Under the pieces are notes generated by a model. It was not told the DNA's origin and ran no database searches. It was given only the letters and a program-made list of their open reading frames with translations. Of a stretch of DNA of 64,000 nucleotides, positions 25,938-51,225 are shown one piece after another. This DNA is from Methylobacillus flagellatus KT. GTDB lineage: Bacteria > Pseudomonadota > Gammaproteobacteria > Burkholderiales > Methylophilaceae. How positions within the stretch are numbered: the stretch's first letter is position 1; each line of letters starts with the position of its first letter. A program made the translations under genes and the position numbers. The stretch spans positions 1,178,001 to 1,242,000 of the forward strand of contig NC_007947.1 in NCBI RefSeq assembly GCF_000013705.1, given 5' to 3'.

Positions 25938-25944
25938 GCCTCCA

Positions 25945-28066: not shown

Positions 28067-28087
28067 GCATGACTCCTTTGATGTCAT

Positions 28088-28128
28088 TTCTATGGAGGCA
28101 CGAACCGAAAATGCTCATATCCATAGAA
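28088..28128. repeat. Inverted repeat between hdeD and the HPF-like gene
   Basis: Perfect 9-base arms TTCTATGGA (28088-28096) and TCCATAGAA (28120-28128) lie in the 79-nt intergenic region. It could be a processing hairpin or an operator. Confidence 0.4.
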
Positions 28129-28145
28129 TTTAGTTTGACCCGCTC

Positions 28146-28757: not shown

Positions 28758-28811
28758 GCTATATCTCCTAAAGATCTAATGGGGTGAAAAAGCAAACATT
28801 CCTGAGCCAAG

Positions 28812-28834
28812 AGAGGGGCGCGACGCGCCCCTCT
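28812..28834. repeat. GC-rich perfect hairpin between yfdX1 and hdeD
   Basis: Eleven-base arms (28812-28822 and 28824-28834) are perfect complements around one base. No T run follows on the minus strand, so it more likely protects or processes the operon mRNA than terminates it. Confidence 0.5.
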
Positions 28835-28853
28835 TACGCCCTATCCAGCGGTT

Positions 28854-29741: not shown

Positions 29742-29785
29742 GGTGATATGCCTCGTATGAGTTAGTGAAAATAGGCGAATCTATT

Positions 29786-29834
29786 GGGGCTGACTGCGAA
29801 CATCGCGAGACTGACCGACCGAACAGTCGGCCCC
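29786..29834. repeat. Hairpin between yfdX2 and yfdX1
   Basis: Arms GGGGCTGACTG (29786-29796) and CAGTCGGCCCC (29824-29834) pair with one G:T, enclosing 27 nt. It fills the intergenic region between the two yfdX genes. Confidence 0.45.
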
Positions 29835-29843
29835 ATCATAACC

Positions 29844-30757
29844 TCAAAACAGCTTTTGGAGGCGCGTCTTCAACTCGTCGAACCATCCCTTGCCGCTTTT
29901 GCCACCAGCCGACTTTTGCTCAATGGACTTCACCTGATCGAAGATGGGTTTGAAGTCCTCCTTCTTGCCATAACCCAGAATTTGCGCCAGCTCGATCTCC
30001 GTGCGCACGGACGACAGCAAGGTGCTGAGCTCCTCGTTCTGCTTGGCATCGCGCTTGTCGGTCTCGGCCAGCTTTTCAGCTTTTTCCATCGCGGCTTCGG
30101 CCCGTAGCATGGGCAGAGGAAAGGCGACCGAGGTCACCACCAGCGTGTTCAGTGCTCGGGCGAGTTCCGCTTTGGCGTTGTCGATCTTGCCGCTGTCGAT
30201 GAGCCGTGCGGCCGACTTGATCGCAGCCGGGTACGTTGCCATCGGCAGGTTGTCGGTTTCGATCACGATTTCGCTGGCCAGATTGGCGACGATGGGCCGG
30301 GCCTTTTGCACCTCGCCATCACCCAACAACTCCCGAGACAACTTGACCGCTTTCTTCACCGATTCCACGTTGGCGTGGATATCGTGGGTGATGACGCGTA
30401 CATCGACCGGCGCCAAAGCAAGTTTGGCGTCGCGTGCCAATACCAGTTCCAGCTTTCCGCTGGCCAGTTCCAGCGCAGCGAGCGCCTCCTTGGTCTTCTT
30501 TGCATCAAGGAGGGTCAAAGCCTCCTGGGTCTTGGTGAGCGCCGTGATGGCGTCCTGAGTGAGCTCAGCACGCTTTTTTTCGGCTTCCCGGGCGACCTGT
30601 CATCTACCTGTGGCTGCGCCGCCTTGGATGCGGCAGAGGGTGCTGCAGCACCTGGGCTAGAACCTGCCGCCGATTGGGCCAGAGCCGGTCCGCTCAGTCC
30701 GACGACGACCGCCAGGGCAAGTGCGGAGAAGGTTGATTGGGGCTGTTTGATATTCAT
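29844..30757 (-). pseudogene. yfdX2: YfdX-family protein (YfdX2), frameshifted
   Basis: The gene starts at ATG 30757 with a clear Sec signal peptide (LALAVVVGLSGPALAQS). The first frame is lost in basic nonsense after QPQVDDR, whereas the neighbouring frame from about 30597 reads VAREAEKKRAELTQDAITAL and runs as a full YfdX domain to 29844. Restoring one base near 30598 joins the two frames. The shift is not in a homopolymer. Intact YfdX2 would be the periplasmic paralogue of YfdX1; here it is a pseudogene or carries a sequencing error. Confidence 0.8.
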
Positions 30758-30779
30758 GATCTTGGGCTCCTAATTAAAG

Positions 30780-31238
30780 TTAGTTGACTGAGATTTCAAT
30801 CTGTTTCGGTTTGGCTTGCTCGGCCTTGACAAGCCGCACTTCCAGCGCGCCGTCTTTCATCGAAGCCGTCACCTTGGTCGGATCAACGTTGTCAGGCAAG
30901 ACAAAGCTGCGCACAAAGCGGCCATACGCACGTTCGATGCGGTGGAACTTCTTGCCCTGCTCCTCTTTTTCCAGTTTGCGCTCGCCGCTGATGGTGAGCA
31001 CGCCGTTTTCCGCGCTGACGCGCACGGCATCCTTGGGGACCTACGGCAGATCCAGTTTGAGGATGAATGCGTTCTCATCCTCGCTGATGTCCACCATTGG
31101 CGCCCAGTCCGCCGTGGTCATGGCTTCGTTGCCGGTACGGGCGCCCTGTCGCTGGGGTGTCCGTCCCAACATCGTCGCCAGGCGGTCTTGCAATTCATCC
31201 AGTTCCCGGAAGGGGTCCCACGGAGTCAATGCAGACAT
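30780..31238 (-). pseudogene. hsp20: Small heat shock protein Hsp20 (locus-internal copy), interrupted by an in-frame TAG
   Basis: The frame begins at ATG 31238 (AGGAG 7 nt upstream) with SALTPWDPFRELDELQDRL and the first alpha-crystallin strands (WAPMVDISEDENAFILKLDLP). A TAG at 31041-31043 follows; the same frame goes on with VPKDAVRVSAENGVLTISGERKLEKEE and SFVLPDNVDPTKVTASMKDG to 30780. In homologues the codon after LDLP usually encodes Glu, so GAG to TAG is likely. A GTG at 31025 could restart a fragment. The alpha-crystallin domain would be split, so the chaperone is probably lost. Confidence 0.82.
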
Positions 31239-31325
31239 ATCGGTTCTCCTTGAACAATGCCGACGAATTGGATGACGCACTGAACAGAGCCGTCGGTTTA
31301 CTCTGAATGGCTCTTACTACAGTTT

Positions 31326-33143
31326 TCAGTTCCGAACAAGTCCTTGAGTCAATTGACGGATATCGCTTTCGTCGAGCGTTTCCCGCGCCAGCAGCTCGCG
31401 CGCACAGCGCTCCAGCACTTCTCGGTTGATTTCGAGAATTCGGTATGCACGATCAAACACACCCATCACGATGTCGCGGATGGCCTGATCGATGCGCGCC
31501 TGGGTCGATTCGGCCACCCGGCAGCCGCCTTGGGCCAGTTCCGGTGTATCGAGAAAGCGGGGCCGCTGCGCCTCGAAGGCGATGTAGCCCAGTCCTTCGT
31601 CCATGCCAAAGCGGGTGATCATGTCGCGGGCAATGTCGGTGGCCCGTGCGAGGTCATCGGCAGCCCCGGTGGACAGCTCGCCGAACACGAGCTTCTCGGC
31701 CGCACGACCGCCCAGCAGCACGGCGATCTTGTGTTCCAGATCGGCGCGCGTCATCAGGAAGCGGTCTTCGGTGGGGCGTTGCAGCGTGTAGCCCAGCGCG
31801 CCGATGCCGCGCGGGATGATCGAGATCTTGTGCACGGGGTCGGTGCCGGGCAGCGCCAGCGCCACCAGCGCATGGCCCATCTCGTGATAGGCCACGGTTT
31901 CCCGCTCCTTGGGATTGAGCACTCGGTTCTTCTTCTCCAGGCCCGCCACGATGCGCTCGATGGCGGCGGTGAAATCCTGCAACTCCACGGCGGACGCTTT
32001 GCGCCGGGTCGCGGCCAGCGCGGCCTCGTTGACCAGGTTCGCGAGGTCTGCACCCGAAAAGCCCGTGGTCAGCGCAGCCACCTGTTCGAGATCGATATCC
32101 TGAGCCAGCGTCACCTTCTTGACGTGGACTTTCAGGATGTCCAGCCGTCCCTTCTTGTCGGGCCGGTCCACCAGCACCTGACGGTCGAAGCGACCGGCGC
32201 GCAGCAGCGCCTGGTCGAGGATTTCGGGGCGGTTGGTGGCGGCGAGGATGATCAGCCCGACCGAGCTGTCGAAGCCGTCCATCTCCGTGAGCAGCTGGTT
32301 GAGGGTCTGCTCGCGCTCGTCATGGCCGCCGATGGGGCCGCCGATGCCGCGCGCGCGGCCCAGCGCATCGAGCTCGTCGATGAAGATGATGGCCGGCGCC
32401 TGCCCGCGGGCCTGCTCGAACAGGTCGCGCACGCGCGCTGCACCCACGCCGACGAACATCTCGACGAACTCCGAGCCTGAGATGGAAAAGAACGGTACCC
32501 CGGCCTCGCCCGCCACGGCCTTGGCCAGCAGGGTCTTGCCCGTGCCGGGCGGGCCAACCAGCAACACACCTTTCGGGATGCGCGCGCCGAGGCGGCCGTA
32601 ATCCTGCGGGTTTTTCAGGAAATCGACGATCTCAACCAACTCCGCCTTGGCTTCATCGACGCCAGCGACATCGGCAAAGGTCACGCCAGTGTTCTTCTCC
32701 ATGAATACCTTGGCACGGCTCTTGCCGATGCTCAGGAAGCCACCCATGCCCTGCTTCTCGGCGAAGCGGCGGAACAGGAAGAACCAGACGCCGAAGAAGG
32801 CCACCGCCGGCAGAATCCAGGAGAGCACATCACGCAGCCAGGTGCTTTCCACCACCCGCGCATAGGGCACGTCGTACTTGGACAGCCGCTCGGCCAGGTC
32901 GGGTTCGACACGGGTGGCCACGATGGTGGTCTTGCCCCGGCTGTCCGGCGATTTCAGGCGCCCGGTGACCGTGCGGTCCGACACCAGCACTTCGGCGACG
33001 CGCCCCTCGGCCAGCGCCTTCTCGAATTCGCTGTAGGGCACGGGCTCGACGGTCTTGGCCGCCTGCCAGTAGTTCTGCAGCGTCAGCAGCAACAGGCCGG
33101 CGACGATCCAGTAGCCAATGTTCCATTGATCTTTCTTTTCCAT
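31326..33143 (-). CDS. ftsH: ATP-dependent zinc metalloprotease FtsH (island copy)
   Basis: A 605-residue membrane AAA+ protease. Two transmembrane helices (about residues 10-26 and 107-125) flank a short periplasmic domain. The AAA module has Walker A GPPGTGKT (197-204), Walker [12 protein letters not shown] and the second region of homology [21 protein letters not shown]. The protease zinc site HEMGH is at 420-424. It is shorter at the C terminus than housekeeping FtsH. ATG 33143 (AGGAA upstream) was preferred over a TTG. Island FtsH proteins supplement membrane quality control under heat. Confidence 0.95.
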
Positions 33144-33170
33144 GGGCAATGTTCCTCGCAAGTCGTGCCG

Positions 33171-34601
33171 CTAGAGAATGGGGGTGAACAGACGGGCCAC
33201 CCCGTCGCGCAAGCGGATGGCCAGCGGGCGGGCGCGCAACGCCTTCGCCGATATCTCGCCCGACGCATCACGAGCGGCATCAAAAAGGGATTCCAGCCGC
33301 GTAGACAGCGCGGTGTCGTACACCTCCACATTGAACTCGAAGTTGAGGCGCAGGCTGCGCGCATCCCAATTGGCAGAACCCAGGCAGCACCACTGGCCGT
33401 CTATCAGCATCAGCTTGCTGTGGTCGAACGGGCCAGGCCGTTCGAAGATGCGTACACCGTGCTCCAGCACCTGCCAGTAGTGGGCGCGCGCGGCCCATTG
33501 CACCGTGGGATGGTCGCCGTTTGCGGGCGTCAGCACCTCGACGCGCACGCCGCGCAACGCGGCCGTGCTCAGCGCCGCGATCATCGGCTGATCGGGCACG
33601 AAGTAAGGTGTCCAGATGCGCACCGAATGCTTCGCCGCGCTCAAAGCGCCCATGAAGGTCCAGCGCATCCTGTCCAGGGCCTCATCGGGACCGGCCTCGA
33701 TGCCGCGCGCCCAAGAGGTTCCTTGCTCATCAGCCGTTGCGGGCGGTTCGCCCCAGAAACCCTTGCTGAGCCGCTCGCCCGTGGTATCGCACCAATCATC
33801 GGTGAAGCACCGCATCAGATGCGCAACCACCGGCCCGCGCAGACGAAAGTGCAAATCGTGACAGGCCTGCTCCGGCGCATCGGGCCGCCAATACGGGCTG
33901 AAGATGTTCATGCCGCCGGTGAAACCCGTCTCGCCATCGATCACCAGCAGCTTGCGGTGATTGCGCAGATGCGCGGCATGCAGGCGCGCGGGAATCAACG
34001 TCGGGTTGAACGTCGCCGCCGGAACGCCGGCGCGTTGCAAGGCGCGGTAAGCGCTGCGGGGCCTCCAGCGGGCATAGACGTCGTCGATCAGCACCCGCAC
34101 TTGCACGCCGCGCTCATGAGCCCGGCGCAGCGCATCGACGAACTGCGCCCCGATGCCTTGGCTGTCGAAGATGTACGAAGCCAGCGCGACGCTGTGCCGC
34201 GCCGACTCGATGGCAGCGAGCATGGCCGGGTAGGCCTGCTCGCCATCGACGAGCGGCTCGATGCGGTTGCCGCTGGTCAGCGACTGGCCGGTGGCACGTC
34301 CCACCAGGTGCGCCAGGCCGGCAAACGGCGCCGATACGGCCTGGGGCATCGTAGGCGCGAGGTCCTGCTGAACAGCAGGATCTGCCCCCGGGAAGAGCCG
34401 CCGCGCGCGCCGCTGGTAGCGGTTAATACCGAACAGCAAGTACAACAGCGAACCGCCCAGCGGCAACAGAGCGATCAGCAGCACCCACAGCGTGGCCGAG
34501 CGCGGGTCACGCTTGTAGATGACCGCGTGCCCCGCTGTGGGGATAGCGACCGCCAGCGACACGAGGGTGGCTGCCCATGTCAGCACGTTGGGGTCGGACA
34601 C
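33171..34601 (-). CDS. Cardiolipin synthase-like phospholipase D protein
   Basis: A 476-residue PLD-superfamily protein. Two N-terminal helices (VLTWAATLVSLAVAIPTAGHAVIY; LWVLLIALLPLGGSLLYLLFG) anchor it, and two HKD motifs follow: HLRNHRKLLVIDGE and HSKLMLIDGQWCCLGSANWD. This is the ClsA layout, implying joining of phosphatidylglycerols into cardiolipin. The start is most likely the GTG at 34601, which has GGGGAGG 5 nt upstream; the first in-frame codon of the longer frame is a poor TTG. It lies between ftsH and clpK in the same operon. Confidence 0.88.
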   Translation of the reverse strand: MSDPNVLTWAATLVSLAVAIPTAGHAVIYKRDPRSATLWVLLIALLPLGGSLLYLLFGINRYQRRARRLFPGADPAVQQDLAPTMPQAVSAPFAGLAHLVGRATGQSLTSGNRIEPLVDGEQAYPAMLAAIESARHSVALASYIFDSQGIGAQFVDALRRAHERGVQVRVLIDDVYARWRPRSAYRALQRAGVPAATFNPTLIPARLHAAHLRNHRKLLVIDGETGFTGGMNIFSPYWRPDAPEQACHDLHFRLRGPVVAHLMRCFTDDWCDTTGERLSKGFWGEPPATADEQGTSWARGIEAGPDEALDRMRWTFMGALSAAKHSVRIWTPYFVPDQPMIAALSTAALRGVRVEVLTPANGDHPTVQWAARAHYWQVLEHGVRIFERPGPFDHSKLMLIDGQWCCLGSANWDARSLRLNFEFNVEVYDTALSTRLESLFDAARDASGEISAKALRARPLAIRLRDGVARLFTPIL

Positions 34602-34618
34602 GACAGCCTCCCCATGAC

Positions 34619-37468
34619 TCAAGATTCGCCGCCCGCTGACTTCTTCTTGCGCGCAGGCTTGCTCGCGTCGCTCGGCGGCGTCTCGGCCACGTTCGCGGCA
34701 TCGGGCTTCTCAGGCTCGGCCGGCCTCGCGGGTGGCTCCTTGCGCTCGAAAATCACCCGCTCGGCCTTGTCATCCCAGCGGGCGCTGGCGTGATCGCCCT
34801 TGCCGATGCCGCCACCCAGCATCTCGCGCGCCAGAGCAGTTTCCAGCTCGCTGCGGATCAGCCGCTTGAGCTCGCGCGCGCCGAACTCGGGCTTGTAGCC
34901 TTCCTCCGCGAAGTGATCGATCAAGGTCTGATCGAAGGTCAGCGTCACGCCCTGGCTGGCGGCGTTGCGGGCCACACGATCGAGCTGCAGGCCGACGATA
35001 TGGCGGATCTCCTCCTTGCCCAGCGCATGGAAGACGATGATCTCGTCGATGCGGTTGAGGAACTCGGGGCGGAAGTGTCCGCGCAGCACGTCCATCACCT
35101 CGGCCTTGGTCTTCTCGTATTCCTCGCCGGCGGCGCCACGGGCCTTCAGCCGACGCTGGATGATGTCCGAGCCCAAGTTCGAGGTGGCGATGATGATGGT
35201 ATTGGTGAAATCCACCACCCGGCCCTTGCCGTCGGTGAGCCGCCCGTCGTCGAACACCTGCAGCAGGATGTTGTAGACGTCGGGGTGAGCCTTCTCGATC
35301 TCGTCCAGCAGCAACACGCTGTAGGGTTTGCGCCGCACCTTCTCGGTGAGCTGGCCGCCCTCGTCGTAGCCCACATAACCCGGAGGCGCCCCCACCAGGC
35401 GTGCCACGGTATGGCGTTCCCCGTACTCGGACATGTCGATGCGCAGCAGCGCACCTTCATCGCCATAGATGGACTCGGCCAGCGCCTTGGCGAGCTCGGT
35501 CTTGCCCACGCCGGTCGGCCCAAGGAACAGGAAAGTCGCCACCGGCTTGCTGCCTTCGCGCAGGCCCGCGCGCGACAACCGCACGGCATCGGCCACCGCG
35601 CGCACCGCTTCGTCCTGGCCCACCAGGCGCTCGTGCAGCCGCTGCTCCAGATGCAGCAGCTTCTCGCGTTCTTCCACCGTCAGCTCGTTGACCGGAATGC
35701 CGGTCAGGCGCGAGACGATCTGCGCGACATGCTCGGCCTTGACTTCGGCGCTGCCCGAGGCGCGCTCGCGTTCCCATTCCTCGACGAGCTTCTTGAGTTC
35801 GGCTTCCTTGGCCTCGATGCGCTTGCCAAGTTCAGCAGCCTTGTCGTACTGCTTGCGTGCCGCCACATAGTCCTGCTCACGCCGCAGCTGGTGCAGTTCG
35901 GACTCCAGCTCTTGCACCGCCACCGGGCGCGCCGTGGCCGACAGCTTCACGCGTGCGGCCGCCTGGTCGAGCAGGTCGATGGCCTTGTCAGGCAAAAAGC
36001 GCGCGGTGATGTAGCGGTCCGACAACTCGGCGGCGGCGATGATCGCATCCTCGGTGATGCTGACCTTGTGGTGCGCCTCGAAGGTGTCGCGCAGGCCGCG
36101 CAGGATCATCATGGTCTGCGCTACCGTCGGCTCGGGCACCATCACCGGCTGGAAGCGACGCTCCAGCGCGGCGTCCTTCTCGATGTACTTCTGATACTCG
36201 TTGAGCGTGGTAGCGCCGATCAGGTTCAGTTCGCCGCGCGCCATCATCGGCTTGAACACGTTGGCCACGTCCAGCCCGCCTTCGCCGCCACCCTGGCCTG
36301 CACCGACGATGGTGTGCACCTCGTCGATGAAGAGAATCAGCTCGCCCTGGTGCTCGGTCACTTCCTTGAGCACCTTCTGCACGCGCTCCTCGAACTCGCC
36401 GCGGTACTTGGCGCCGGCCACCATGGCGTTGATGTTGAGTTCGACCAGACGCTTGTCGCGCAGCGTCTCGGGCACTTCGCCGGCGACCATGCGCTGCGCC
36501 AGCCCTTCGACGATGGCGGTCTTGCCGACGCCGGGCTCGCCGATCAGCACCGGGTTGTTCTTCTTGCGCCGGGCCAGCACTTCGATGGTCGTCTCGATCT
36601 CCTGCGCGCGGCCGATGACCGGATCGAGCTTGCCCTCGCGCGCCATCTTGGTGAGGTCGCGCGAATACTTGTCGAGTTCCGGCGTGTTGGTCGGCGTCGA
36701 GGCGCGGCCATCCTCGGCCCCTTTGCCGACCACCTTGCTTACCTGCTGGCGCAGCGCTTGCGGCGTGAGGCCGTAACGGCGCAGCAGGTTGGCCGCCAAA
36801 CCTTCGCCTTCCTCGGCGAGCCCGATCAGGAAATGCTCTGGCCCGACATAAGAGTGGCCGAGTTCGTTGGAGGCCACGAAAGCACGGCTGAGCGCGTCCT
36901 TGACCCGGGGCGACACGCCGATCTCGCCCTCGAACGGCTTATCGCCGCGCTTGGCTTCGGATTCGATCTGGCGCTTGAGGTCATCGACCTTGATCTTGAA
37001 CTGCCCCAGGATGGTCTTGACCACGTCGCTGTCGGATAGCGCCAGCAGCAGGTGTTCGGTATCGACTTCGGCGCGCCCGAACTCTGCAGCGTGTCGGGCG
37101 GCCTCCTGCAATAGGGCCTCGGACTGTTCGCTGATACGGCTGGCGAGCCCACTGCCGCGACGGCGCGAGGTGCCCGTACCGGCCGGGGCGGGTTCGCCGA
37201 ACGAGGCATCGACCACCTCGTCGGTATCGGCCGCCATGGACCGCGCGTCGTCACCGATGCGGAAGAAGTCGCTGCCAAGGAAGTCTTCGAACAGCCCGCT
37301 GCGCGAGCCGAACAAGGCTTCCAGCGGTGAGACGGTGCGCTTTTGCTGGCGCACCAGTTGGCGATAGTGATCGTCACACAACAGCATGGTGCTGTGGCGA
37401 CCATTGAGATTGGCTTCCACCCGCACCGTGGCGGGCTGGCCGCAGACTTGGCATTGTTTTCTGACCAT
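34619..37468 (-). CDS. clpK: ClpK/ClpG disaggregase (HSP100)
   Basis: A 949-residue stand-alone disaggregase and hallmark of the stress-tolerance locus. It has a distinctive N-terminal Cys-rich extension (Cys6, Cys9, Cys31, His34), a Clp N domain (about 115-250), AAA1 with Walker A GEPGVGKT (310-317), a coiled-coil M domain shorter than in ClpB (about 515-570), and AAA2 with Walker A GPTGVGKT (650-657). No ClpP-binding loop is obvious. Experiments on the family show strong heat tolerance independent of DnaK. The C terminus ends in a Lys/Ser tail. Downstream genes follow after 17 nt. Confidence 0.95.
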
Positions 37469-37563
37469 GCTGATGCTCCTTGAGAGGACTGATTTGACGA
37501 GGCGCCGAAGGTCACGGCGCCTCGACCTTCACCTGGTTTTTTCGGAGGACGAGCCGATCGGCG

Positions 37564-38133
37564 TCAGCCGTTGATCGGGATCGAGCGCCCCTGCTTGGGC
37601 GTACTGGCCTCGCGCTTTTCCATCGTGATCGTGAGCACGCCGTTCTTGAAAGCGGCCTTGATCGTGTCCTGGTTGGCATCGGCCGGCAGGTTCAGAGCGC
37701 GCTGAAAGCTGCCGTAGGAGCGCTCCACCCGGTGGAAACCACCGTCTTTGCTTTCCTGCTCCTGACGCTTTTCACCGCGCACCAGCAGCACGTCGTTGTC
37801 GAGCGTGATCTGGATGTCCTTTTCCTCTACGCCGGGAACCTCCAAAGAAATCTTGTACTGCTTGTCGGTTTCCTGGATGTCCAGCGCCGGTTTCAGCAGG
37901 CCCGGCCACTCCGACGGCCAGCGTGGCATGGCCAGCGTCGGGAAACCGAAGCCTCGAAACGCGTCGTCGAACAGGCGATCGATCTCGCGATGCAATTGCA
38001 GGATGGGACTGACGGGCCCACCCGCCACCGGCAGGTCATTGCGCTGCACCGGCAGCGAGACAGTGCTCTGTTGTTCTTCCTGCTCCTTTTTGAACCAGTT
38101 CCAGGGAGCCAATTTCTTGAAATCAATGTCCAT
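37564..38133 (-). CDS. hsp20: Small heat shock protein Hsp20 (first chaperone gene of the locus)
   Basis: A 189-residue small Hsp. The N-terminal arm (MDIDFKKLAPWNWFKKEQEE) is followed by HREIDRLFDDAFRGFG and an intact alpha-crystallin domain from about residue 80 (LDIQETDKQYKISLEVPGVEEKDIQITL ... GVLTITMEKREA), with a C-terminal anchoring motif RSIPING. ATG 38133 has GGAGG 6 nt before it. It corresponds to sHsp20 upstream of clpK in described loci and remains intact, unlike the second copy. Confidence 0.93.
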   Translation of the reverse strand: MDIDFKKLAPWNWFKKEQEEQQSTVSLPVQRNDLPVAGGPVSPILQLHREIDRLFDDAFRGFGFPTLAMPRWPSEWPGLLKPALDIQETDKQYKISLEVPGVEEKDIQITLDNDVLLVRGEKRQEQESKDGGFHRVERSYGSFQRALNLPADANQDTIKAAFKNGVLTITMEKREASTPKQGRSIPING

Positions 38134-38165
38134 GTCATACCTCCAGAAATCAATTGAAGACTCAC

Positions 38166-38447
38166 TCAATCCGTTTGCCTGCGGCTATGGATAGCGCGCC
38201 CAGGCAACACGGGATGTTTCGCTGACTTCGGCTGCTCATCTGTGCGTATCACCTCCTTCTTTCTGCCTGCTTGGATCTGATCATTGATCCATTGATCGAT
38301 TTCACTTTGACGAAACCGCCACGTCCCGCCGAGCTTGAAGGCCGGAATTTCCCCGTGCGCGGCGAGCCGGTAAAGCGTCCGCTTGCCGACCTTTAAGTAG
38401 GTAGCCAACTCGTCGAGTGTGAAGATCGCCTGCTGGCGCGCTGTCAT
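38166..38447 (-). CDS. Helix-turn-helix regulator/excisionase-type protein
   Basis: A 93-residue DNA-binding protein. The N terminus is an excisionase-family HTH (FTLDELATYLKVGKRTLYRLAAHGEIPAFKLGGTWRFRQSEIDQWI), followed by a basic tail. It is the first gene of the locus, 32 nt before hsp20, and probably regulates the operon or assists excision. ATG 38447 is preceded by an unusual run of eight G instead of a standard Shine-Dalgarno. Confidence 0.85.
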   Translation of the reverse strand: MTARQQAIFTLDELATYLKVGKRTLYRLAAHGEIPAFKLGGTWRFRQSEIDQWINDQIQAGRKKEVIRTDEQPKSAKHPVLPGRAIHSRRQTD

Positions 38448-38510
38448 ACCCCCCCCACAAGTTCCGTCTTCGTGCAGCCTCGCTCGAGGAAGTTCTTGCA
38501 AGACTTTGCA

Positions 38511-38540
38511 ATATTTTGCGCCTAACATGCAGAAAGTCAA
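38511..38540 (-). promoter_or_regulatory. Candidate promoter of the stress-tolerance operon
   Basis: On the minus strand TTGACT (38535-38540) is followed by AT-rich CAAAATATTG; spacing is 16 or 18 bp depending on the -10 chosen. It precedes the HTH gene by about 65 nt. Two TTGCAA-like direct repeats lie just downstream. Confidence 0.4.
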
Positions 38541-38674
38541 GAGCCAACACCCAGCGATTTGCTGGCCGATTGATGTGACTCAAATCTTCAAGGACGGTAT
38601 GCCAGGGCGGGCCGGTCCGGCGCAGGGGACGGTGGGTTGATCGGGACCTTGCGGGCGCCGCCCACGGCCGCAGA

Positions 38675-40027
38675 TCAAACACCGATCCTCACGTTGTAAC
38701 CGAGCGCCCGCAGCCCCTTGCTCGTCCGCATGTTCCTTGGTGGATACTCGTCTGGGCGCGCCCAGCCGACAATTTCCCCGAGGCTGCTCAGACCAATGTG
38801 TGGAATTGCCCAGTCGTCGCTGCGGATCGCGTTCCAGAGCCGGGCTGAAACACTTCCGTTGCCCCAGACGACGTAGTTCAACAGCTCAAGCACCGTCCGC
38901 CCTTCGCGAGATCGCTGCCGCCAGAGCCACTCGCCGAACTTTTCCACCTTGTCGTCGCCGGCCTGCGGTCGGTCGGGCAAGCCTAAGTGCTCGTTTTCCT
39001 GCTTGATGGCGTGGTCTCGGATCGCGTGCACCCGGGAAACGGCATCCACGAACTCCTGCTCGGTCAATTTGAGAATGCGATCGCGTGCCAGCAGCTCACG
39101 CAGCCGGGGCGACCACTCGTAAATGGTGCGTTCTTCAAACGAGTGGTCGAAGTCGGCGTCATGCCACCACTCCAGCGCGTCGCGCAGCGCCAGCTCAGGG
39201 TTCTTCGAGTTCCTGTCGAAGAACTCCTCGTAAGGATGACGGTTTCCATCCTTGACCTGCTTGTAGTAATAGGCGTGCAGGAACTGATCCGCTTGAACGC
39301 CGGGAGCCACCGACGCATCGATCCAGGCGGGCTTGGCACCCGGTGCCGCAACCCTGGACGCGATGGATCGCATCACCTGCAGCGTGTCGTTCCAGTCCTG
39401 CTCGAACTTCTGGAAGCGCTTCTCAGACGATCGCTTCGTGTCGACAAACACCAGACCGTGGTTCTTCGGCAGCAAGCGGTCCTTGTCGAACTGCTGCTCA
39501 AGTCCGTATTCGCGCTTCGACAACTCAGACCGCCGGTCCGCCAAGCGCAGCTGCTCCTGGTAGATCTCCTTGGTCAGAGGCCGGGCACGGTCATCCACTT
39601 CCTCAAAGAAGCGCTGCAGCTCACGCTCCATACCCGTTTCGACGAGTTCGTCGTGGGGCAGAAAGGTGCCCGCTTCGATGTTCGATATCCAGGCCCGGTC
39701 AGACAGGTTGGCAGACCCGATGTAGGCACCGGCATCCACCCACCAGATGATCTTGGCGTGCAGGATGTCGGGCACGAGCTTGCAGTCGTAGTTCGGGCTG
39801 GCCTTATCCAGAAACCACTTCAAAACGGCGGGATCGACAGCCACCGTGTGGTCGTAGCGGCCAAAGAACTCCAGGGGCTTCAGGTGCTGCGCGCAGGCCT
39901 CGAACAACTTCATGTTGTCGCGGCTGGCGTAAGCGACGGCCGCGCGAACGCGCGTGCAGGATTCAATCACCTCGCCCAGCAGGTTTTGTAGCAGTTGTTT
40001 GTTGAGCGGGCCGGCGATGAAGCGCAT
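38675..40027 (-). CDS. PLD-like domain protein linked to the type I R-M operon
   Basis: A 450-residue protein. The N terminus (about 1-150) resembles a phospholipase D-like nuclease domain with one HKD-type motif, [25 protein letters not shown]. The remainder is helical and charged and not assigned. ATG 40027 has AAGGA 9 nt upstream. It is last in the hsdM-hsdS-hsdR-metallopeptidase cluster, separated from the metallopeptidase by 28 nt, and is probably cotranscribed. Single-HKD proteins usually dimerise and some are restriction nucleases; activity here is inferred only. Confidence 0.7.
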
Positions 40028-40055
40028 TGCAGCAGATCCTTTTGTTATTGCATCG

Positions 40056-40414
40056 TCATCGGGCATGACCGCTCGGTTTGCGGGAGAGCCGCTCAACGGA
40101 TGCGCCATCTGCATCGCCTATCTGGCGTTGCTCGATCGTGCGCCAACCCGGGACATGTGCACTCATCAGCGCCTTGAACATCCTCCCGTGGTTCGCGTAA
40201 CGCAGATGAAGCAGTTCATGAACGATGACGTAATCCTGGAAAGGCTCATCCTGGTCGAGCAAGTCAGTGGCCAAGGTGACGGTTCCCGCCGATGAACAGG
40301 AACCCCACTTCCTGCGCATCTCCTGCACCCGAACCACGCGGGGATTCACCTTCAACTTGACCGCCCAGGCCAGTGCGCGGCGTCGCAAGTCCTGCGCCGG
40401 GTACAGGGACGATT

Positions 40415-40418
<4 letters not shown>
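40056..40418 (-). CDS. YgjP-like zinc metallopeptidase (DUF45, M48-like), short form
   Basis: A 120-residue protein with the DUF45/YgjP core: [20 protein letters not shown], then the zinc site HELLH in [20 protein letters not shown]. It is shorter than full YgjP proteins (about 230 residues) and lacks the N-terminal half. Its start overlaps the hsdR stop (ATGA), so it belongs to the R-M operon. Such peptidases recur beside type I R-M genes, but their role is unknown. Confidence 0.82.
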
Positions 40419-43353
<2,935 letters not shown>

Positions 43354-43357
<4 letters not shown>

Positions 43358-44576
43358 GCCGTGGCCTCCTCGTGTTGCGTCGAGGCCGGGGACAGCGCCG
43401 ACAGATCCAGATCCGATACGGCTATCTCGCCAGTCATCAGTTTGCGCAGCAGAGATTCGAAGAGTTCCTCCAACACTTCGCACTTCGTCTGGTGTAGGTC
43501 GATCTTTCGGTCGAGGGTATGGAGTATGGTCACGATGTCCTTGGCCTCGTCCGGATCGCTCGGGCAAGCAACCTTGAAGGTCTCCACATCGTTCAGATTC
43601 AATGTCATCGTTCCGTGCGCTGATGGAACGATCTGGCTAAGCAGCCTCTCTTTACCGGCATAGATTGCGGATCGTAAGAACTGCCCGGAGTATTCCCCAC
43701 GCGTCACCAGGGCTTTGACGTCCTGGTTGAAAGCCATCGCTCGGTTGATCACCGCGACCGGGAGGTCTTTCGCCAGACCCATACCACGAACCAGAAGAAG
43801 AACAGCGCCCTCAGGCGCAAGACGGCTTCCCGCCTCCACACCTGCAGCCGACACATGATCGATAGCGTCATCGAGTGCCGGACGCTTCAGATCCTTGCCT
43901 GACACCCAAGGGATGTCGCCATTCCAATACTCCGTCACTGACTTTCGAGGCGTTCCACCGCTCCAGATTTCGCAGAGTTCGAGGATCGTTCGCGGGCTCC
44001 AGCTTTCTGGCATCAGCCCGATCTCAGTCTCCTTTTGTGCTTCTGCTCGCAGGCCACGACTGAATAGCTCGCCCAATGTCGCGCGCTTGAGTTCTTGCAG
44101 CATGTCCAGCAGCGACGACTGCTGAACCAGCGCCGATTCGGTTTGACGCAACACGGCGGCGATCGCTTTCTGCTCTCCGTCGCTTGACGGATAAGAAATC
44201 TCCTTCTCCTTGAGGATGGTGAAGTGTCGGTTGTAGCCACGCGCGGGCAAGTCAACCGCACGGCAGGCGTAGAAAAAGAATAGCGGGTCGATGCCTGGCT
44301 TCGGGCGTAACAGTTGGGTTCCGTCCGCGCCGCGCGCAAACGGCGTATCTAGAAACTTGAATACACGCGTGTGGTCACCGAAAACGATCAACGGAAGCGG
44401 TGTGTCGATGACGGCGCTTTCGTCATCGGTCCAGCCTGCAATCGGCTCTTGCCCTTGGTCGATGACTGGGAAACGACCAGACGGCTTGTAGTCCCGGGAT
44501 TGAATCTTGGCCTTGCCTGTGACCGATACCGGGACAAGGCAATCAGCGACCGATTCGGTGGCCCACGATTCGACTG

Positions 44577-44580
<4 letters not shown>
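43354..44580 (-). CDS. hsdS: Type I restriction-modification specificity subunit S
   Basis: A 408-residue subunit with two target-recognition domains (about 1-170 and 190-360). Each is followed by a helical spacer, for example [40 protein letters not shown] and the C-terminal [39 protein letters not shown]. It sets the bipartite DNA target; the target sequence cannot be read from the protein. It overlaps hsdM (ATGA) and hsdR (ATGA) by 4 nt on each side. Confidence 0.93.
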
Positions 44581-46418
<1,838 letters not shown>

Positions 46419-46436
46419 GTCTGCTATGTTTGTTAT

Positions 46437-46461
46437 ATTCTGCTTACTTGTCAAGCAGAAT
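46437..46461. promoter_or_regulatory. Candidate operator of the R-M operon
   Basis: A perfect dyad with 9-base arms ATTCTGCTT and AAGCAGAAT around a 7-nt centre lies 18 nt before the hsdM start and overlaps a TTGACA-like -35 element. It is a plausible target of the HTH fused to HsdM and lies between hsdM and the divergent zinc-ribbon gene. Confidence 0.5.
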
Positions 46462-46505
46462 TTGGCGATGGGGTGCACCACCGCCTCCGGAATAGGAGAT
46501 CAGGC

Positions 46506-47015
46506 ATGAGCGGGAACCGATGGGACACGGCTGGCGTGCCTCACAAGGGGTGGACGTGCGTTGACGTCGTCGACTTGCGAGCCGATGGCGGTCCGGCAGA
46601 CGAAACCGATTACGCCACCTGCCAGATGTGCGGCAACGAGAAGATCCGCTACGTCCACATCATGGAGCATCCGGATCTGGACGAGCACTTCGACGTCGGG
46701 TGCGTCTGCGCCGGGAAGATGAGCGACGACTACGAGGGACCGAGGCGCCGCGAGGCAAGGCTGCGTAACCGGGCGGCGCGCCGGACCCGCTGGCTGCAGC
46801 GCAAGTGGCGGGTCTCCGCCAAGGGGAACAGCTTCCTCAACCTCGAAGGCTACAACCTGGTGGTCTATCCGACGAAGACGAAGCGCTGGGGCTTCAAGAT
46901 CGGGGACCGATTCGGTCCGAGGACATACCCGACAGCCAACGAAGCCAAGCTGGCGCTGTTCGATGACTTCTGGGCGGCGACCCAGGATGATGACCGACTG
47001 TGGTCATCTGACTGA
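46506..47015 (+). CDS. Hypothetical zinc-ribbon protein
   Basis: A 169-residue protein on the opposite strand to the R-M operon. The middle has a Cys-rich site ([34 protein letters not shown]) that could bind zinc, followed by an Arg-rich helix ([22 protein letters not shown]) and a mixed C-terminal domain. GGAG lies about 10 nt before ATG 46506. I know of no defined function for this family; it may share the R-M regulatory region. Confidence 0.65.
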
Positions 47016-47017: not shown

Positions 47018-47056
47018 TGCGGACGCGGGTTCAATTCCGCAAACGGGAATCGAACC
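47018..47056 (+). repeat. Degenerate ssrA 3'-end copy A (att remnant)
   Basis: Bases 47018-47038 match the ssrA T-arm region (21115-21135) at 19 of 21 positions. They are followed by an inverted copy of the core (GGGAATCGAACC, 47045-47056), so the site forms a dyad. It lies three bases after the stop of the zinc-ribbon gene. Confidence 0.65.
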
Positions 47057-47236
47057 GGCGTCCTGCACGATGCACTTGTCTGGTGACCCCGGCCGGGCAG
47101 AACTGGTAGGATTGTTGGCAGTTGGGACTGGATTCCGCACCTTTCCGCAGGAGTTCGCAGCGGTTCTAAGGCGCTGAGTTACACAGGTTTGGCGCAGGGT
47201 TCCACCCCACCGAAACTCCGCAAACTGTTCGATCCT

Positions 47237-47262
47237 GTTCGCAGGAACCCGCAGGAGTTCGA
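47237..47262 (+). repeat. 26-bp repeat, copy 1
   Basis: Matches 51144-51169 at 22 of 26 positions; each copy is followed within 20 nt by AATAGTC. It is part of the scar sequence that follows an ssrA-like remnant. The rest of 47057-47620 holds no credible gene. Confidence 0.55.
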
Positions 47263-47390
47263 AATAGTCCGCACGGCCTCACGGTAAGCTGTTGATTTTG
47301 AACAACCCGCTTGATCAGTCCGCGCTTGCGGACTGCGGACTTCCAATGAGCCGGAAATCTGGCTCACCCAGACGGCTCTCGGTACCGACA

Positions 47391-47447
47391 CGTTGCAAAC
47401 AATCGGTACTTCTCGATAACGACCCGACGAATCGGAACATCTCAGCT
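47391..47447 (+). repeat. 57-bp repeat, copy 1
   Basis: About 80-85 percent identical to 49375-49432, including the shared block CGACGAATCGGAACAT. No open frame with family resemblance covers it. Confidence 0.6.
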
Positions 47448-47620
47448 AGCCCTGATGTTGCCCCTGCTTGCTGACGCGGCTTGGTAGTTCTGGCTGCAAT
47501 ATTGCCCCCCAATCGCTGTGGAAGGTAGCTCCCTGGGCAAGTGCAATCGAGGGGGGACGCTGCGTAGGGCCGCGTGCCCCCCATCCTGCAGCGTGACCTG
47601 ATTGAGTCAAGGCCGGGTTG

Positions 47621-47923
47621 TCATGCAGGCAGTTTGGCTGCAAGCACTTCGACCTTCTCGATATTGGGCGGAGAACTGAGCAAGGTCGCGGCGTTGGCCA
47701 TCAAGGCCGCGGCGATCTGGCCGTTCAGATGTGCCTGACGACCTGCCTCATCGGCAAAGGCATCGAACACACCGAACGTCGAAGGGCCAAACTTCAATGC
47801 AAACCAGGCAGTGGTGCCGGACTCGGCGTTGGCGAGCGGCAGTGCGCTGGCCAGGAAGTCGGCAAGCGCAGCCTCCTGGCCGGGTTTAGCTTCGAGGCGA
47901 ACAAACAGGGCGAGCTTGGTCAT
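47621..47923 (-). CDS. Antibiotic biosynthesis monooxygenase (ABM)-domain protein
   Basis: A 100-residue dimeric ferredoxin-like fold of the ABM/YgiN type: MTKLALFVRLEAKPGQEAALADFLASAL, TAWFALKFGPSTFGVFDAFADEAGRQAHLNG and a closing strand KVEVLAAKLPA. Members oxidise quinols or degrade reactive compounds without cofactors. It is divergent from a GlxA-type regulator that may control it. Confidence 0.87.
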   Translation of the reverse strand: MTKLALFVRLEAKPGQEAALADFLASALPLANAESGTTAWFALKFGPSTFGVFDAFADEAGRQAHLNGQIAAALMANAATLLSSPPNIEKVEVLAAKLPA

Positions 47924-48018
47924 GCTGTATTCCTTTGGGTAAATGGAAAAGTGGGTGAAGGGATCGACGAGCCTGCAGTCTAAATCTTCATGACAGCCAT
48001 CTCTATAGGCAATAATGA

Positions 48019-48038
48019 CAACTTTGATATCATTGTTG
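48019..48038. promoter_or_regulatory. Candidate operator next to the GlxA-type regulator gene
   Basis: A dyad CAAC-TT-TGATATCA-TT-GTTG ends two bases before the chosen ATG (48041), in the 117-nt divergent region with the monooxygenase gene. It may mediate autoregulation. Confidence 0.4.
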
Positions 48039-48040
48039 CC

Positions 48041-49003
48041 ATGAAACTCCACATCCTTGTTTGTGATGGCGTGTTTGATCTGGGGCTTGCGGCGCTCACT
48101 GACACAGTGGGCTTGGCCAATGCGATGTCGGGCTCGCTGCCACAGGCTCCCGCGCACATAGAGCTCACGCTGGTGGGCGTGCGGCGTCGCATCCGAACTG
48201 CGCAAGGCTTGACGGTCCCCGTGGTCACTGCGCGTGGTGTGCCGGAACCAGACGTCGTGCTCGTGCCCGCGTTTGGTGACAAGATGCCTAACACGCTCTC
48301 GGCTCGGCTCACACGCCCCGACGTGCCCGATGCGGTCGCCATGCTACAGCAGTGGTCCACCGCTGGCGCGCACCTTGGTGCCGCCTGCTCCGGTAGTTTC
48401 TTGCTTGCAGAGAGTGGCCTGCTTGATGGGCATCGTGCGACGACGTCATGGTGGCTGGGGCCGATGTTTCGGCAGCGCTATCCGAACGTCACGCTGGACG
48501 AGTCACGCATGATCGTGAACTCGACACGCTTCACTACCGCGGGTGCCGCTTTAGCCCACGTCGACTTGGCCTTGCGCATCATCCGGGGGCGCAGTCCAGC
48601 GCTGGCGGCTCTAGTGGCACGCTATCTGCTGGTCGAGGCACGCAGTTCGCAAGCCGAGTTCGTGATTCCCGACCACCTTGCACATGCCGACCCGATGGTG
48701 GAGCGCTTCGAGTGCTGGGCCAGACGTCAGCTCGCGAAGGGGTTCTCGCTGGCCGAGGCGGCCAGCGCCGTGGGCACAAGCGAGCGCACCTTGGCGCGGC
48801 GGCTGCAAAGCGTTTTGGGCAAGACACCGCTGTCGTATTTCCAGGACCTGCGCGTGGAGCATGCCGTGCATCTCTTGCGCACCGGAAACGCGAGCGTCGA
48901 CCAAGTCGCCGCACAGGTCGGGTACTCGGATGGGGTGACCCTGCGGGCCCTGTTGCGCCGCAAGCTGGGCCGGGGTGTCAGGGAGTTGCGACGCGGTGGA
49001 TGA
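48041..49003 (+). CDS. GlxA-family AraC-type transcriptional regulator
   Basis: A 320-residue regulator. The N-terminal DJ-1/PfpI-like domain begins MKLHILVCDGVFDLGLAALTDT and has the nucleophile-elbow region HLGAACSGSFLLAESGLLDG. The C-terminal AraC HTH pair reads LAEAASAVGTSERTLARRLQSVLGKTPLSYFQDLRVEHAVHLL and VAAQVGYSDGVTLRALLRR. It probably regulates the divergent monooxygenase. ATG 48041 was chosen by family alignment; it has no clear Shine-Dalgarno site, and an in-frame ATG exists at 47990. Confidence 0.88.
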   Translation: MKLHILVCDGVFDLGLAALTDTVGLANAMSGSLPQAPAHIELTLVGVRRRIRTAQGLTVPVVTARGVPEPDVVLVPAFGDKMPNTLSARLTRPDVPDAVAMLQQWSTAGAHLGAACSGSFLLAESGLLDGHRATTSWWLGPMFRQRYPNVTLDESRMIVNSTRFTTAGAALAHVDLALRIIRGRSPALAALVARYLLVEARSSQAEFVIPDHLAHADPMVERFECWARRQLAKGFSLAEAASAVGTSERTLARRLQSVLGKTPLSYFQDLRVEHAVHLLRTGNASVDQVAAQVGYSDGVTLRALLRRKLGRGVRELRRGG

Positions 49004-49261
49004 CCAGAAGCGTTTGGTGTATGTACGGCTGGAGACCGCCGGGAAACTGACGCAGGCCAAACGGCGCATTTGGACCTGACAAACTACTGCCCGCCACGGC
49101 GCGCAAGCTCCAGTTTGACCCCGGACAAAGTTTTGCTGGCAATGTCGTGGTTGAGCAAATCAATACCTTGATTGAGCAACGCTGTGCACTGACGATTCGG
49201 CGGCTCACCGACCCCGCCGCCGACAATGATGCAGCCGCCGAGCCCACCGTTTGAACTACCG
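49004..49261. other. Intergenic region without a recognised gene
   Basis: No credible coding frame. The region leads into ssrA-like remnant B. Confidence 0.5.
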
Positions 49262-49300
49262 TGCAGACACGGGTTCGATTCAGGGTTTGGGAATTGAACC
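49262..49300 (+). repeat. Degenerate ssrA 3'-end copy B (att remnant)
   Basis: Bases 49262-49282 match the ssrA T-arm region at 17 of 21 positions. GGTTCGATTC (49272-49281) is followed by its near-inverse GAATTGAACC (49291-49300), the same dyad design as copies A and C. Confidence 0.6.
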
Positions 49301-49374
49301 GACATCCCATCGCAGACGAGTTTGATGCCCGTTTCCGGCGACTGAATCGCCCAGATGGCCGGCGGTGCCGCCGA

Positions 49375-49432
49375 CGTTGCAAATCGTCGGTACTTGTCGA
49401 TATCTACCGACGAATCGGAACATTCCTCAGCT
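49375..49432 (+). repeat. 57-bp repeat, copy 2
   Basis: Second copy of the repeat at 47391-47447. It again lies downstream of an ssrA-like remnant and overlaps the last codons of the small HTH gene on the minus strand. Confidence 0.6.
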
Positions 49433-49639
49433 GACACTGACCTGGGCCACCACGGTCTTGGTCGAGGTCGCCAGGCACGACTCCTCGTAGGCCTCAATGT
49501 CGGCCTGCCGGTAGAGCGCGCGCCCGCAGAGCTTCAGAAACTTGGGGCCGATCCCTGCGCTGCGCCAGCGTTCCAGGGTGGCCTCACTGATACACCAGCG
49601 AACAGCCAGTTGTTTTTGATTGAGGTGAGCGACTTCCAT
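49427..49639 (-). CDS. Small helix-turn-helix (excisionase/MerR-like) protein
   Basis: A 70-residue DNA-binding protein: LNQKQLAVRWCISEATLERWRSAGIGPKFLKLCGRALYRQADIEAYE is the excisionase-type HTH motif. GGAG lies 7 nt before ATG 49639. It follows the fic gene by 83 nt on the same strand. It could be an antitoxin-like or recombination-directionality partner; the sequence does not decide. Confidence 0.8.
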   Translation of the reverse strand: MEVAHLNQKQLAVRWCISEATLERWRSAGIGPKFLKLCGRALYRQADIEAYEESCLATSTKTVVAQVSVS

Positions 49640-49722
49640 CTTGGTCTCCGTCCGAACGAGTTGGCAGGAGTCCATGAAGGCGCTGTTCCGGCCGCGAGCC
49701 AAGGCAATTCCAGGAAGTGCCG

Positions 49723-50847
49723 CTACTCGGGCAGATCATTCAGCTCGTAGCTGGTGCTACGCCCGCCGGCATCCGATTTGCGCAGCACGCCCCGCGTCAG
49801 CAGATCGTTGATGTCGCGCAGTGCCGTGTCCGGCGAGCATTTGGCGATGGCCGCCCACTTGCTGCTGGTGAGCTTGCCCTCGAAACCATCGAGCAGCTTG
49901 CTCAGCAATTTCACCTGCCGCTCGTTCAACGGGGTCGTCGCCCAGCGCTGCCAGAACCGCGCTTTCGTCAGGACAGCGTCCAGCGTGTGCTGGGCCTGGT
50001 CGACGGCGCGATGAAGCGTGTCGAGGAACCAGGCAAGCCACTCGGTGACATCCATCGACCGCTTCTGCGTCCTCTCCAGGATGTCGTAGTAAGCCTTGCG
50101 TTCGCGCTGGATCTGCGCCGACAAACTGTAGAAGCGTTGCGGGCTGCCATCGGCACGCGCCAGCATCAGATCGCCAATGGCCCGGGCGATACGGCCATTG
50201 CCATCATCGAATGGATGCAGAGTGACGAACCACAGATGGCCAAGGCCTGCCTTGAGCAGTGGCGGTTCGTTTGATGTGCCATTCAGCCAGTCGAGGAAGC
50301 GGCTGGTTTCGGTCTCGAGGCGATCGGCCGGCGGTGCTTCGAAATGCACCCGCTGGCGGCCGATGGGTCCGGACACCACCTGCATCGGGCCGGTGGCATC
50401 GTCGCGCCAGCCGCCGACGTTGATCTTGGAGAGCCCAGAATAGCCGGTAGGAAACAGTGCGGCATGCCAGCCGAACAGACGCTCACGCGACACCAGTGCC
50501 TGGCAGTTGGCGGTGGCATCAAGCACCATCTCGACCACGCCTTCGACATGCCGATCGACCGGAGCGAGCGCGCCGATGTCAACGCCCAACCTGCGGGCGA
50601 TGGACGAGCGCACGGATTCAACGTTGAGCTGCTCGCCTTCGATCTCGCTGGTCTTGACTACGTCCTCGGTGAGCGCCGCGAGACTCGCTTGGTCACGCAA
50701 GGCCATGCCGACGTCAGCCAGACGCCCCATCAAGAGCCCTTGGGCACGACTGACCTCAGCCATGGGCTCGGCCAGCGCCGCCAGGTCGAAGCGCCAGTTT
50801 GGCCAGTCACCGGCCTGCCAGATGTATTTGTATTCGCCGCTATTCAT
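49723..50847 (-). CDS. Fic-family protein (class II, N-terminal inhibitory helix)
   Basis: A 374-residue Fic protein with an N-terminal DUF4172-type segment, the Fic core with the catalytic loop HPFDDGNGR (residues 211-219) and a C-terminal winged HTH (about 300-370). The inhibitory motif T66-SEI-E70-G71 should hold the active site off until displaced, as in other class II Fic proteins. The expected reaction is AMPylation of protein hydroxyls. All active-site residues are present. Downstream lies a small HTH gene; together they form the last cargo of the island. Confidence 0.9.
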   Translation of the reverse strand: MNSGEYKYIWQAGDWPNWRFDLAALAEPMAEVSRAQGLLMGRLADVGMALRDQASLAALTEDVVKTSEIEGEQLNVESVRSSIARRLGVDIGALAPVDRHVEGVVEMVLDATANCQALVSRERLFGWHAALFPTGYSGLSKINVGGWRDDATGPMQVVSGPIGRQRVHFEAPPADRLETETSRFLDWLNGTSNEPPLLKAGLGHLWFVTLHPFDDGNGRIARAIGDLMLARADGSPQRFYSLSAQIQRERKAYYDILERTQKRSMDVTEWLAWFLDTLHRAVDQAQHTLDAVLTKARFWQRWATTPLNERQVKLLSKLLDGFEGKLTSSKWAAIAKCSPDTALRDINDLLTRGVLRKSDAGGRSTSYELNDLPE

Positions 50848-50985
50848 GCGGAGATTATGGGCTGCAATCTCCGCTCGCGCAAGTCAATCGCCGCGCATTG
50901 TGCGGTGAATTTGGTCACCATTCGCCGCATGACGGATCGCCTTGCCCCAGGAATGGGTGTAAATGGGTGTGTTATTGGCTGTGGC

Positions 50986-51023
50986 AACGGACGCGGGTTC
51001 AGTTCCCGTTTCGAGAATTGAAC
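50986..51023 (+). repeat. Degenerate ssrA 3'-end copy C (att remnant)
   Basis: Bases 50986-51006 match the ssrA T-arm region at 16 of 21 positions and are followed by the inverted core GAATTGAAC (51015-51023). It marks the end of the HTH/Fic module. Confidence 0.55.
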
Positions 51024-51143
51024 TGGCCACGGAAAGCAGACGAGGTTGAGGCCGTATTCCGACTACCAATCAGTCCGAAAAACCTGCTTGATCGTCCACT
51101 GCCGAAGGGCGTACCGACTGGCTTTTCGATCGAGTTCGCACTG

Positions 51144-51169
51144 GTTCGCAGCAACCCGCAGCGCTTCGA
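51144..51169 (+). repeat. 26-bp repeat, copy 2
   Basis: Second copy of the repeat at 47237-47262 (22 of 26 identical), downstream of remnant C as the first copy is downstream of remnant A. Confidence 0.55.
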
Positions 51170-51197
51170 TTCCGTACTTTCAATAGTCGTTTGATAC

Positions 51198-51225
51198 GGG
51201 GTACCATCCCACCACCAAATACCTG
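51198..51225 (+). other. Possible outer attachment-site remnant
   Basis: The stretch CCACCACCAAATACCT resembles the ssrA end plus its flank (CTCCACCAATACCT, 21142-21155). It could be the original right junction of the island. The match is short, so this is tentative. Confidence 0.35.

Follow-up and report, generated by a model that had tools for sequence, protein, structure and literature searches.

What are the three short inverted repeats, each resembling part of a tmRNA gene, that punctuate the island downstream of ssrA in Methylobacillus flagellatus KT, and do they mark the points at which its parts were integrated? The window analysed here is a stretch of 64,000 nucleotides (contig NC_007947.1, positions 1,178,001 to 1,242,000, forward strand) that contains ssrA, the gene for transfer-messenger RNA (tmRNA), and an island behind it; a stress-tolerance island has already been described for this strain, as excerpts of the published account relate (PMC8290217). 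A preliminary description suggested that copies of the ssrA 3' T-arm, each followed by an inverted core, lie between cargo modules as scars of old attachment sites left by repeated integration. Our analysis revealed a tandem structure, an empty site in sister genomes, junctions at CCACCA, a conserved right end, and a layout held in common with integrase-bearing viral contigs. The three dyads are probably the inner parts of the right ends of tandem integrase-less elements, or satellites, at the 3' end of ssrA.

The dyads themselves are as follows:

47019..47063, + strand: dyad 1, consisting of a T-arm arm, a 9-nt spacer and an inverted arm
49264..49307, + strand: dyad 2
50988..51031, + strand: dyad 3

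The identities of their arms to ssrA positions 21115-21135 agree with those first claimed, being 19/21 at 47018, 17/21 at 49262 and 16/21 at 50986. On the + strand of the window, 16/21 or more is reached at 21115 and at the three arm sites only, while the - strand has a single match (47046, 16/21), which corresponds to the inverted arm of dyad 1. First-order Markov simulation (60 runs) gives an expectation per strand of 0.33 matches at 16 or more, 0.03 at 17 or more and 0 at 19 or more; hence, the T-arm match of the third site is weak when taken alone. The inverted core is present after each arm: the pattern GGGTTCRRTTC-N-GAATYGAAC, with a gap of 5-14 allowed, has three matches in the window and none in 100 shuffles, and across the whole genome of 2,971,517 bp the same three are found, all on one strand; the spacer is 9 nt in each. 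All three dyads do lie between cargo modules. Among 42 distinct tRNA and tmRNA genes, tmRNA is the top match of each arm, although the margin is small at 1-2 bases, the best unrelated tRNA reaching 17, 16 and 15 of 21; a merely generic T-arm similarity was rejected on this ground.

The limits of the island are set not by the dyads but by comparison with sister genomes, and involve three features:

20789..21149, + strand: ssrA (tmRNA), the target gene
21142-21149: left core (left attachment site, attL), the ssrA 3' end CTCCACCA
51212..51217, + strand: right core (right attachment site, attR), CCACCA, where the sequence found behind ssrA in sister genomes begins

In those genomes the ssrA end CTCCACCA is joined directly to sequence starting at window position 51212, forming an empty site. 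After the CCACCA of ssrA, the match to window 51212-51295 amounts to 78, 75, 74 and 78 of 84 positions in L150, L152, L153 and L154 respectively, 65/84 in L151 and 30/84 in the more distant L155. The island therefore comprises 21150-51211 and was inserted at the CCACCA end of ssrA. Both attL and attR are retained for the array as a whole, its outermost junctions being those defined by the sister genomes, and an intact ssrA is accompanied by a displaced 3' fragment, CCACCAA at 51212, as in tDNA islands, albeit a very short one. The junction lies at the CCA end and not in the T-loop of ssrA. Dyad 3, whose pattern ends at 51023, is 189 nt inside the right edge of the island; the cores are CCACC motifs on the right-hand side of the dyads, at 156 nt from dyad 1 and 190 nt from dyad 3, and the core of element 2 is deleted in the window. 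Thus, repeated integration at ssrA is largely upheld as tandem accretion at the ssrA 3' end with an empty site in sister genomes, but the dyads are not the crossover sites.

Separately, ssrA and its downstream sequence (20685-21150 and 51212-51805) are inverted against the GGDEF/EAL gene at 51807-54014 when compared with the sister genome L150, and this difference in orientation indicates a local inversion of the ssrA region.

Between these limits the array reads from left to right as three elements:

21150..21240: left end of the outermost element, a replacement terminator after CCACCA
21169..47015: cargo 1, comprising a DUF2924 protein, a shortened serine recombinase, heat-resistance (tLST/LHR) type genes and type I restriction-modification
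47020..47211, + strand: right end of element 1, type A, terminating in GGGTTCCACCCCACC
47212..47455, + strand: internal left end (LE2) of element 2, with CCGCAGGAGTTCG-type repeats
47621..49254: cargo 2 overall
47621-47923, - strand: small open reading frame (ORF) of cargo 2, no Pfam match, with a homologue on plasmid NZ_CP046903 annotated as a monooxygenase
47990-49003, + strand: AraC-type regulator of cargo 2
ending at 49254: 3' remnant of a hipA-like gene of cargo 2, identified by eye against HipA ORFs of relatives
49427..50847, - strand: cargo 3 overall
49427-49702, - strand: AlpA-like HTH_17 protein of cargo 3, below the curated cut-off
49723-50847, - strand: Fic/DUF4172 protein of cargo 3
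50988..51213, + strand: right end of element 3, type B, terminating in GGGGTACCATCCCACC

The outermost left end is 81% identical over 94 nt to that of a small relative, L026, and the stop codon of the last ORF of cargo 1 (46506-47015) precedes GCGGACGC at 47019 by 3 nt. Element 2 has a truncated right end: compared with Pusillimonas L099, in which this end is longer and extends to CCCCACC, the window has lost about 287 bp between 49342 and 49347, so that the end breaks off at about 49342. The CCGCAGGAGTTCG repeats are present in some right and left ends and absent from some small relatives, and were not taken as proof. The block from 47018 to about 51217 recurs at 95-97% identity in Cupriavidus gilardii, Nitrosomonas europaea and Alcanivorax; homology to the array begins at dyad 1 in the latter two and in a Stutzerimonas plasmid, which is 94% identical from dyad 1 to 49098.

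At the left of the island is a group of three (21169-23573): the serine recombinase, the DUF2924 protein and one further small ORF, which runs into the left end of the element. Homologues of the serine recombinase that are 89-98% identical occur in eight other genomes of the order.

The right end is conserved far beyond this genome. A pattern scan for the dyad across one genome per species (84,980 species) returned 112 stretches; in the relatives search 6/149 genomes carry it, and BLAST with the right end as query matches 17/300 genomes of the order, our own being included in both counts. These 17 include several matches of short or incomplete extent, and of eight places examined from this BLAST search, four (L177, L178, L180 and L184) have no dyad by the pattern. 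When dyads are aligned, a conserved right end starts there and stops at CCCACC, with unrelated sequence beyond that often resembles the terminator of a tRNA or tmRNA gene. On the other side, conservation extends to about position -7 or -8 left of the arm (120 dyads). With a search expression, a right end that stops at CCCACC after about 0.2 kb was recognised at 89 of 130 dyad sites; the CCCACC stands 156 nt beyond the dyad in 36 of them and at 190 nt in 24. CCACCA closes 72 of the 89, while 15 continue into a second type of left end and two into other sequence. The association with ssrA extends to other genomes, since the dyad is downstream of tmRNA, on the same strand and at 3-68 kb, in all eight genomes with both on one contig (19 genomes were considered, of which ten have them on separate contigs and one has no tmRNA above the cut-off).

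What precedes the dyad varies. A co-directed ORF ends within 400 nt of it at 58/120 sites, and its stop codon is within 10 nt of GGACGC in 30 of these 58 and within 26 nt in 40. Among 100 cargo ORFs next to dyads, chosen by script, 23 match Fic, 12 HipA, six HamC of Hachiman and six NERD-UvrD, and the remaining matched ORFs include further defence or toxin families.

At about 2680-2710 in L103, CCACCAGACC is the junction between a type A right end and what by eye matches the beginning of an AbiEi gene like that of L014; it looks off-target or made by microhomology at CCACCA. In L046 (7242-7715), a tRNA-Phe gene and a right end are separated by about 180 nt and point towards each other from opposite strands. 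Within the dyads, one arm differs from the other at the same purine position in 102/120 (A/C in 55 and G/T in 47; the others A/T in 12 and G/C in six); this largely tracks two right-end classes and hence may be inherited.

Six relatives can be followed from target gene to right end. Over about 1.8-2.05 kb, each has the same layout: behind the CCACCA that closes the target gene comes a left end containing a terminator of its own, then the cargo, and then the dyad and right end. The target is tmRNA in L026, L047, L089 and L131, tRNA-Phe in L025 and tRNA-Ala in L037; therefore, the family is not confined to ssrA. The last bases are CCCACCACCA in L025 and L131 and CCTCCACCA in L089. Fic is found in L025, L026, L037 and L047, a PIN protein and an HTH_17 protein in L089, while L131 has one HTH_17 ORF and two without a match. 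No recombinase domain was detected among the nine scanned ORFs of these six relatives, and the principal ORFs of elements 2 and 3 in the window likewise have none.

A counterpart that does encode an integrase comes from viral contigs, in which two different tyrosine integrase architectures by Pfam (here L010-type and L011-type) share the T-arm motif. Downstream of L010-type integrases, the T-arm of a tmRNA-like 3' end lies 87 nt past the integrase match in 15/15 loci examined; in the ten loci whose sequence was inspected this tmRNA-like end runs on to CTCCACCA, and a T-arm dyad with imperfect arms is found inside the 3' end of the integrase gene, int. At L011-type integrases of at least 60% identity, there is a T-arm at the end of int in 7/10 (two perfect dyads, one imperfect and four single arms) and a CTCCACCA core within 200 nt in 9/10. 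For 12 viral cores compared, tmRNA is the top match with 25-28/32, against 22-26/32 for the best tRNA. The motif in viral contigs is beside, and not at, the tmRNA-like 3'-end core, and where arm and core are compared the cargo gene of the defence elements stands where viral contigs have int. Since cargo occupies the position of the integrase, we read the elements as satellites without an integrase. Among genomes of the same order, L011-type integrases lie in part at other tRNA genes, with no clear dyad; M. flagellatus itself has an L011-type integrase with an internal TAG (C1:1393267-1394238), adjoining tRNA-Leu.

Taken together, these comparisons give each element a left end, cargo drawn from toxin, defence or stress genes, and a right end of some 0.2 kb, itself composed of the T-arm dyad, spacer DNA and a core ending CCACC(A). 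In layout this right end corresponds to the attP/attR (phage and right attachment site) region of the viral contigs with tyrosine integrases, where a T-arm motif lies at the int 3' end and a copy of a tmRNA-like 3' end follows 90-200 nt later. On the simplest account, cargo would have replaced int while attP was kept; we infer that an integrase acts on the elements in trans, presumably binding the arms of the dyad.

Several results weigh against this account. No integrase acting on these elements was identified, and the recombinase that adjoins ssrA in the window, which is of the serine type, is an alternative candidate. At about 7 bp, the block shared by the window junctions is shorter than expected of a tyrosine integrase. 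Over their final 32 nt, the right ends of the window are unlike the tmRNA end, the best matches being to tRNAs at 17/32 (element 3) and 11/32 (element 1), and in the viral cores tmRNA is ahead of the best tRNA by only 1-5 of 32. No right end was recognised by the search expression at 41/130 sites, some being cut, diverged or joined elsewhere; among the six relatives, L026 ends in CCCCACCGAGACC, L037 in CCCCACCATCA, and L047 has no CCCACC end. On the viral side, the L010-type loci, with arms that pair imperfectly, yielded no dyad in an automatic inverted-repeat test, and there is no T-arm dyad in 35 L011-type integrases under 60% identity.

No tyrosine recombinase domain occurs in the island ORFs scanned, and the integrase expected within an island of the Islander type was absent from them; PF00589 matches of the genome are at 0.21, 0.42, 1.39 and 2.49 Mb (four of the five listed), outside the island. 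Recombinase genes near right ends are few: among loci up to L133, tblastn with four recombinase queries, once the families of the queries themselves are set aside, picked up matches to integrases in L079, L070 and L132 and, more weakly (30% identity), in L033, and to serine recombinases in L014, L023 and L123. In L079 a tyrosine integrase gene with an Arm-DNA-bind_3 domain is directly right of one right end. There are 81 right ends without duplicates, 14 of them too near a contig end for the first ORF to be inspected; among the first ORFs right of 41 right ends, none is integrase-like by eye except that in L079.

The rival that survives best, although we consider it unlikely, is that the dyad, like integron attC, is a site where cargo genes are exchanged by site-specific recombination, with integration of the element as a whole taking place at CCACCA. 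At least seven cargo-end classes occur next to a single right-end class, the borders at the dyad being sharp, and of the 13 cargo-end classes represented more than once, five combine with more than one right-end class, although one of the five (L100/L111) may be a clustering artefact. In L026 the left arm goes with the cargo, and the spacer and right arm with the right end, but this is a single locus. Stop codons abut the arm, an arrangement equally accounted for if cargo replaced int. The largest right-end class has its 9-nt spacer in both orientations (AAAC and GTTT), as if flipped: the mean spacer match over 190 pairs is 5.09 direct and 4.57 as reverse complement, against 1.85 reversed and 1.51 complemented, and for the inner five bases 2.23, 2.14, 0.93 and 0.94 respectively. 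A second class is without the flip (5.99 direct, 2.35 reverse complement), homologous recombination across 20-bp arms or inversion of a hairpin loop could yield the same patterns, and the scanned island ORFs provide no tyrosine recombinase domain to carry out the exchange.

Somewhat less probable still is the explanation in the preliminary description, whereby the dyads are old attachment cores and crossover at the ssrA T-arm left them as scars. The arms do resemble the ssrA T-arm most closely, and homology has a sharp limit on the left side of the dyad, but sister genomes place the island boundary at CCACCA, 189 nt away from dyad 3, so that for the outermost right junction the scar interpretation is already contradicted and was not borne out. 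Moreover, what follows the dyad in most recognised cases is a tail of fixed length rather than the rest of ssrA, and viral contigs have the motif beside a separate core.

We judge it very unlikely that the array was integrated by the serine recombinase which, with DUF2924, is next to ssrA. Large serine recombinases use short cores, the gene is just inside the left end (21954-23573), and homologues are near tmRNA (L203), tRNA-Phe (L204) and tRNA-Met (L208). Against this, 26/29 other homologue loci have no tRNA or tmRNA in the stretch examined, the gene here is shorter (343 aa, compared to 459 aa in two homologues), and the scanned ORFs of the six small relatives have no recombinase domain. Finally, that the dyad is a transcription or RNA feature only, a terminator or RNA hairpin of the cargo gene, is scarcely credible: it directly follows stop codons and, as single-stranded DNA, folds better than shuffles in dyad 1 (z -3.7), L026 (-6.8) and L012 (-3.2), but dyads 2 and 3 are not clearly better (-1.25 and -0.05), there is no T-run, one position is mismatched between the arms in 102/120 dyads, the preceding cargo is in either orientation, and no Rfam family reaches gathering score there.

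The satellite interpretation can be carried further, although we regard the extension as doubtful: the right end would be a portable docking module, with which a large class of integrase-less defence satellites of beta- and gammaproteobacteria would copy the attP of tmRNA phages, swapping int for a toxin or anti-phage gene and having incoming integrases install them behind tmRNA or tRNA genes, the dyad serving also as a point of cargo exchange, integron-like but without an integron integrase.

Methods that require an integrase, such as Islander as presented in excerpts of its description (PMC4383910), would miss elements of this kind. The signature of a T-arm dyad, 156 or 190 nt, and CCCACC with CCACCA allows small integrase-less defence or toxin elements to be found and delimited. 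It also suggests a simple route by which single defence genes could spread, using the attachment region of ssrA-integrating elements, and the role of the dyad becomes directly testable.

Comparison with known systems places the array among several described kinds. As in integron gene cassettes, a cargo ORF is followed at once by a palindromic site, in modular arrays; unlike them, the scanned island ORFs have no tyrosine recombinase domain, and the dyad is inside the element with the junction elsewhere. No description of a T-arm dyad was recognised in the literature searched. The islands downstream of tmRNA in Pseudomonas, which have IntY and AlpA, share with ours, according to excerpts of their description (PMC12595487), a position directly downstream of tmRNA, a direct repeat ending in CTCCACCA, defence cargo, AlpA and no recognised transfer genes; however, they carry a tyrosine integrase and a repeat of 14 bp, whereas the small elements here show no integrase, are stacked, have a T-arm dyad and share a repeat of about 7 bp. 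The ssrA islands of Dehalococcoides are likewise in tandem downstream of ssrA, and excerpts of that study (PMC3146451) report 15 without an integration module, proposed to be cis-mobilizable by accretion; they differ in a CcrB-like serine recombinase, crossover in the T-loop, and the ssrA-derived 20-bp repeats that separate them, which are the attachment sites themselves. With cis-mobilizable elements (CIMEs), as characterised in excerpts of PMC5704250, the array shares the retention of attL and attR and a tandem arrangement with other elements. CIMEs have no integration genes; of the ORFs scanned here, those of the six relatives and the main ones of elements 2 and 3 show no recombinase domain, while element 1 has the shortened serine recombinase. 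CIMEs are described there as decayed integrative and conjugative (ICEs) or integrative and mobilizable elements (IMEs), whereas here a stereotyped right end is combined with many cargos across genera. Since IntY-bearing tmRNA islands, tandem ssrA islands of which some lack an integrase, CIMEs and tDNA islands have all been described, the array belongs to a known kind: its architecture is a variant of ssrA-island accretion, new in form.

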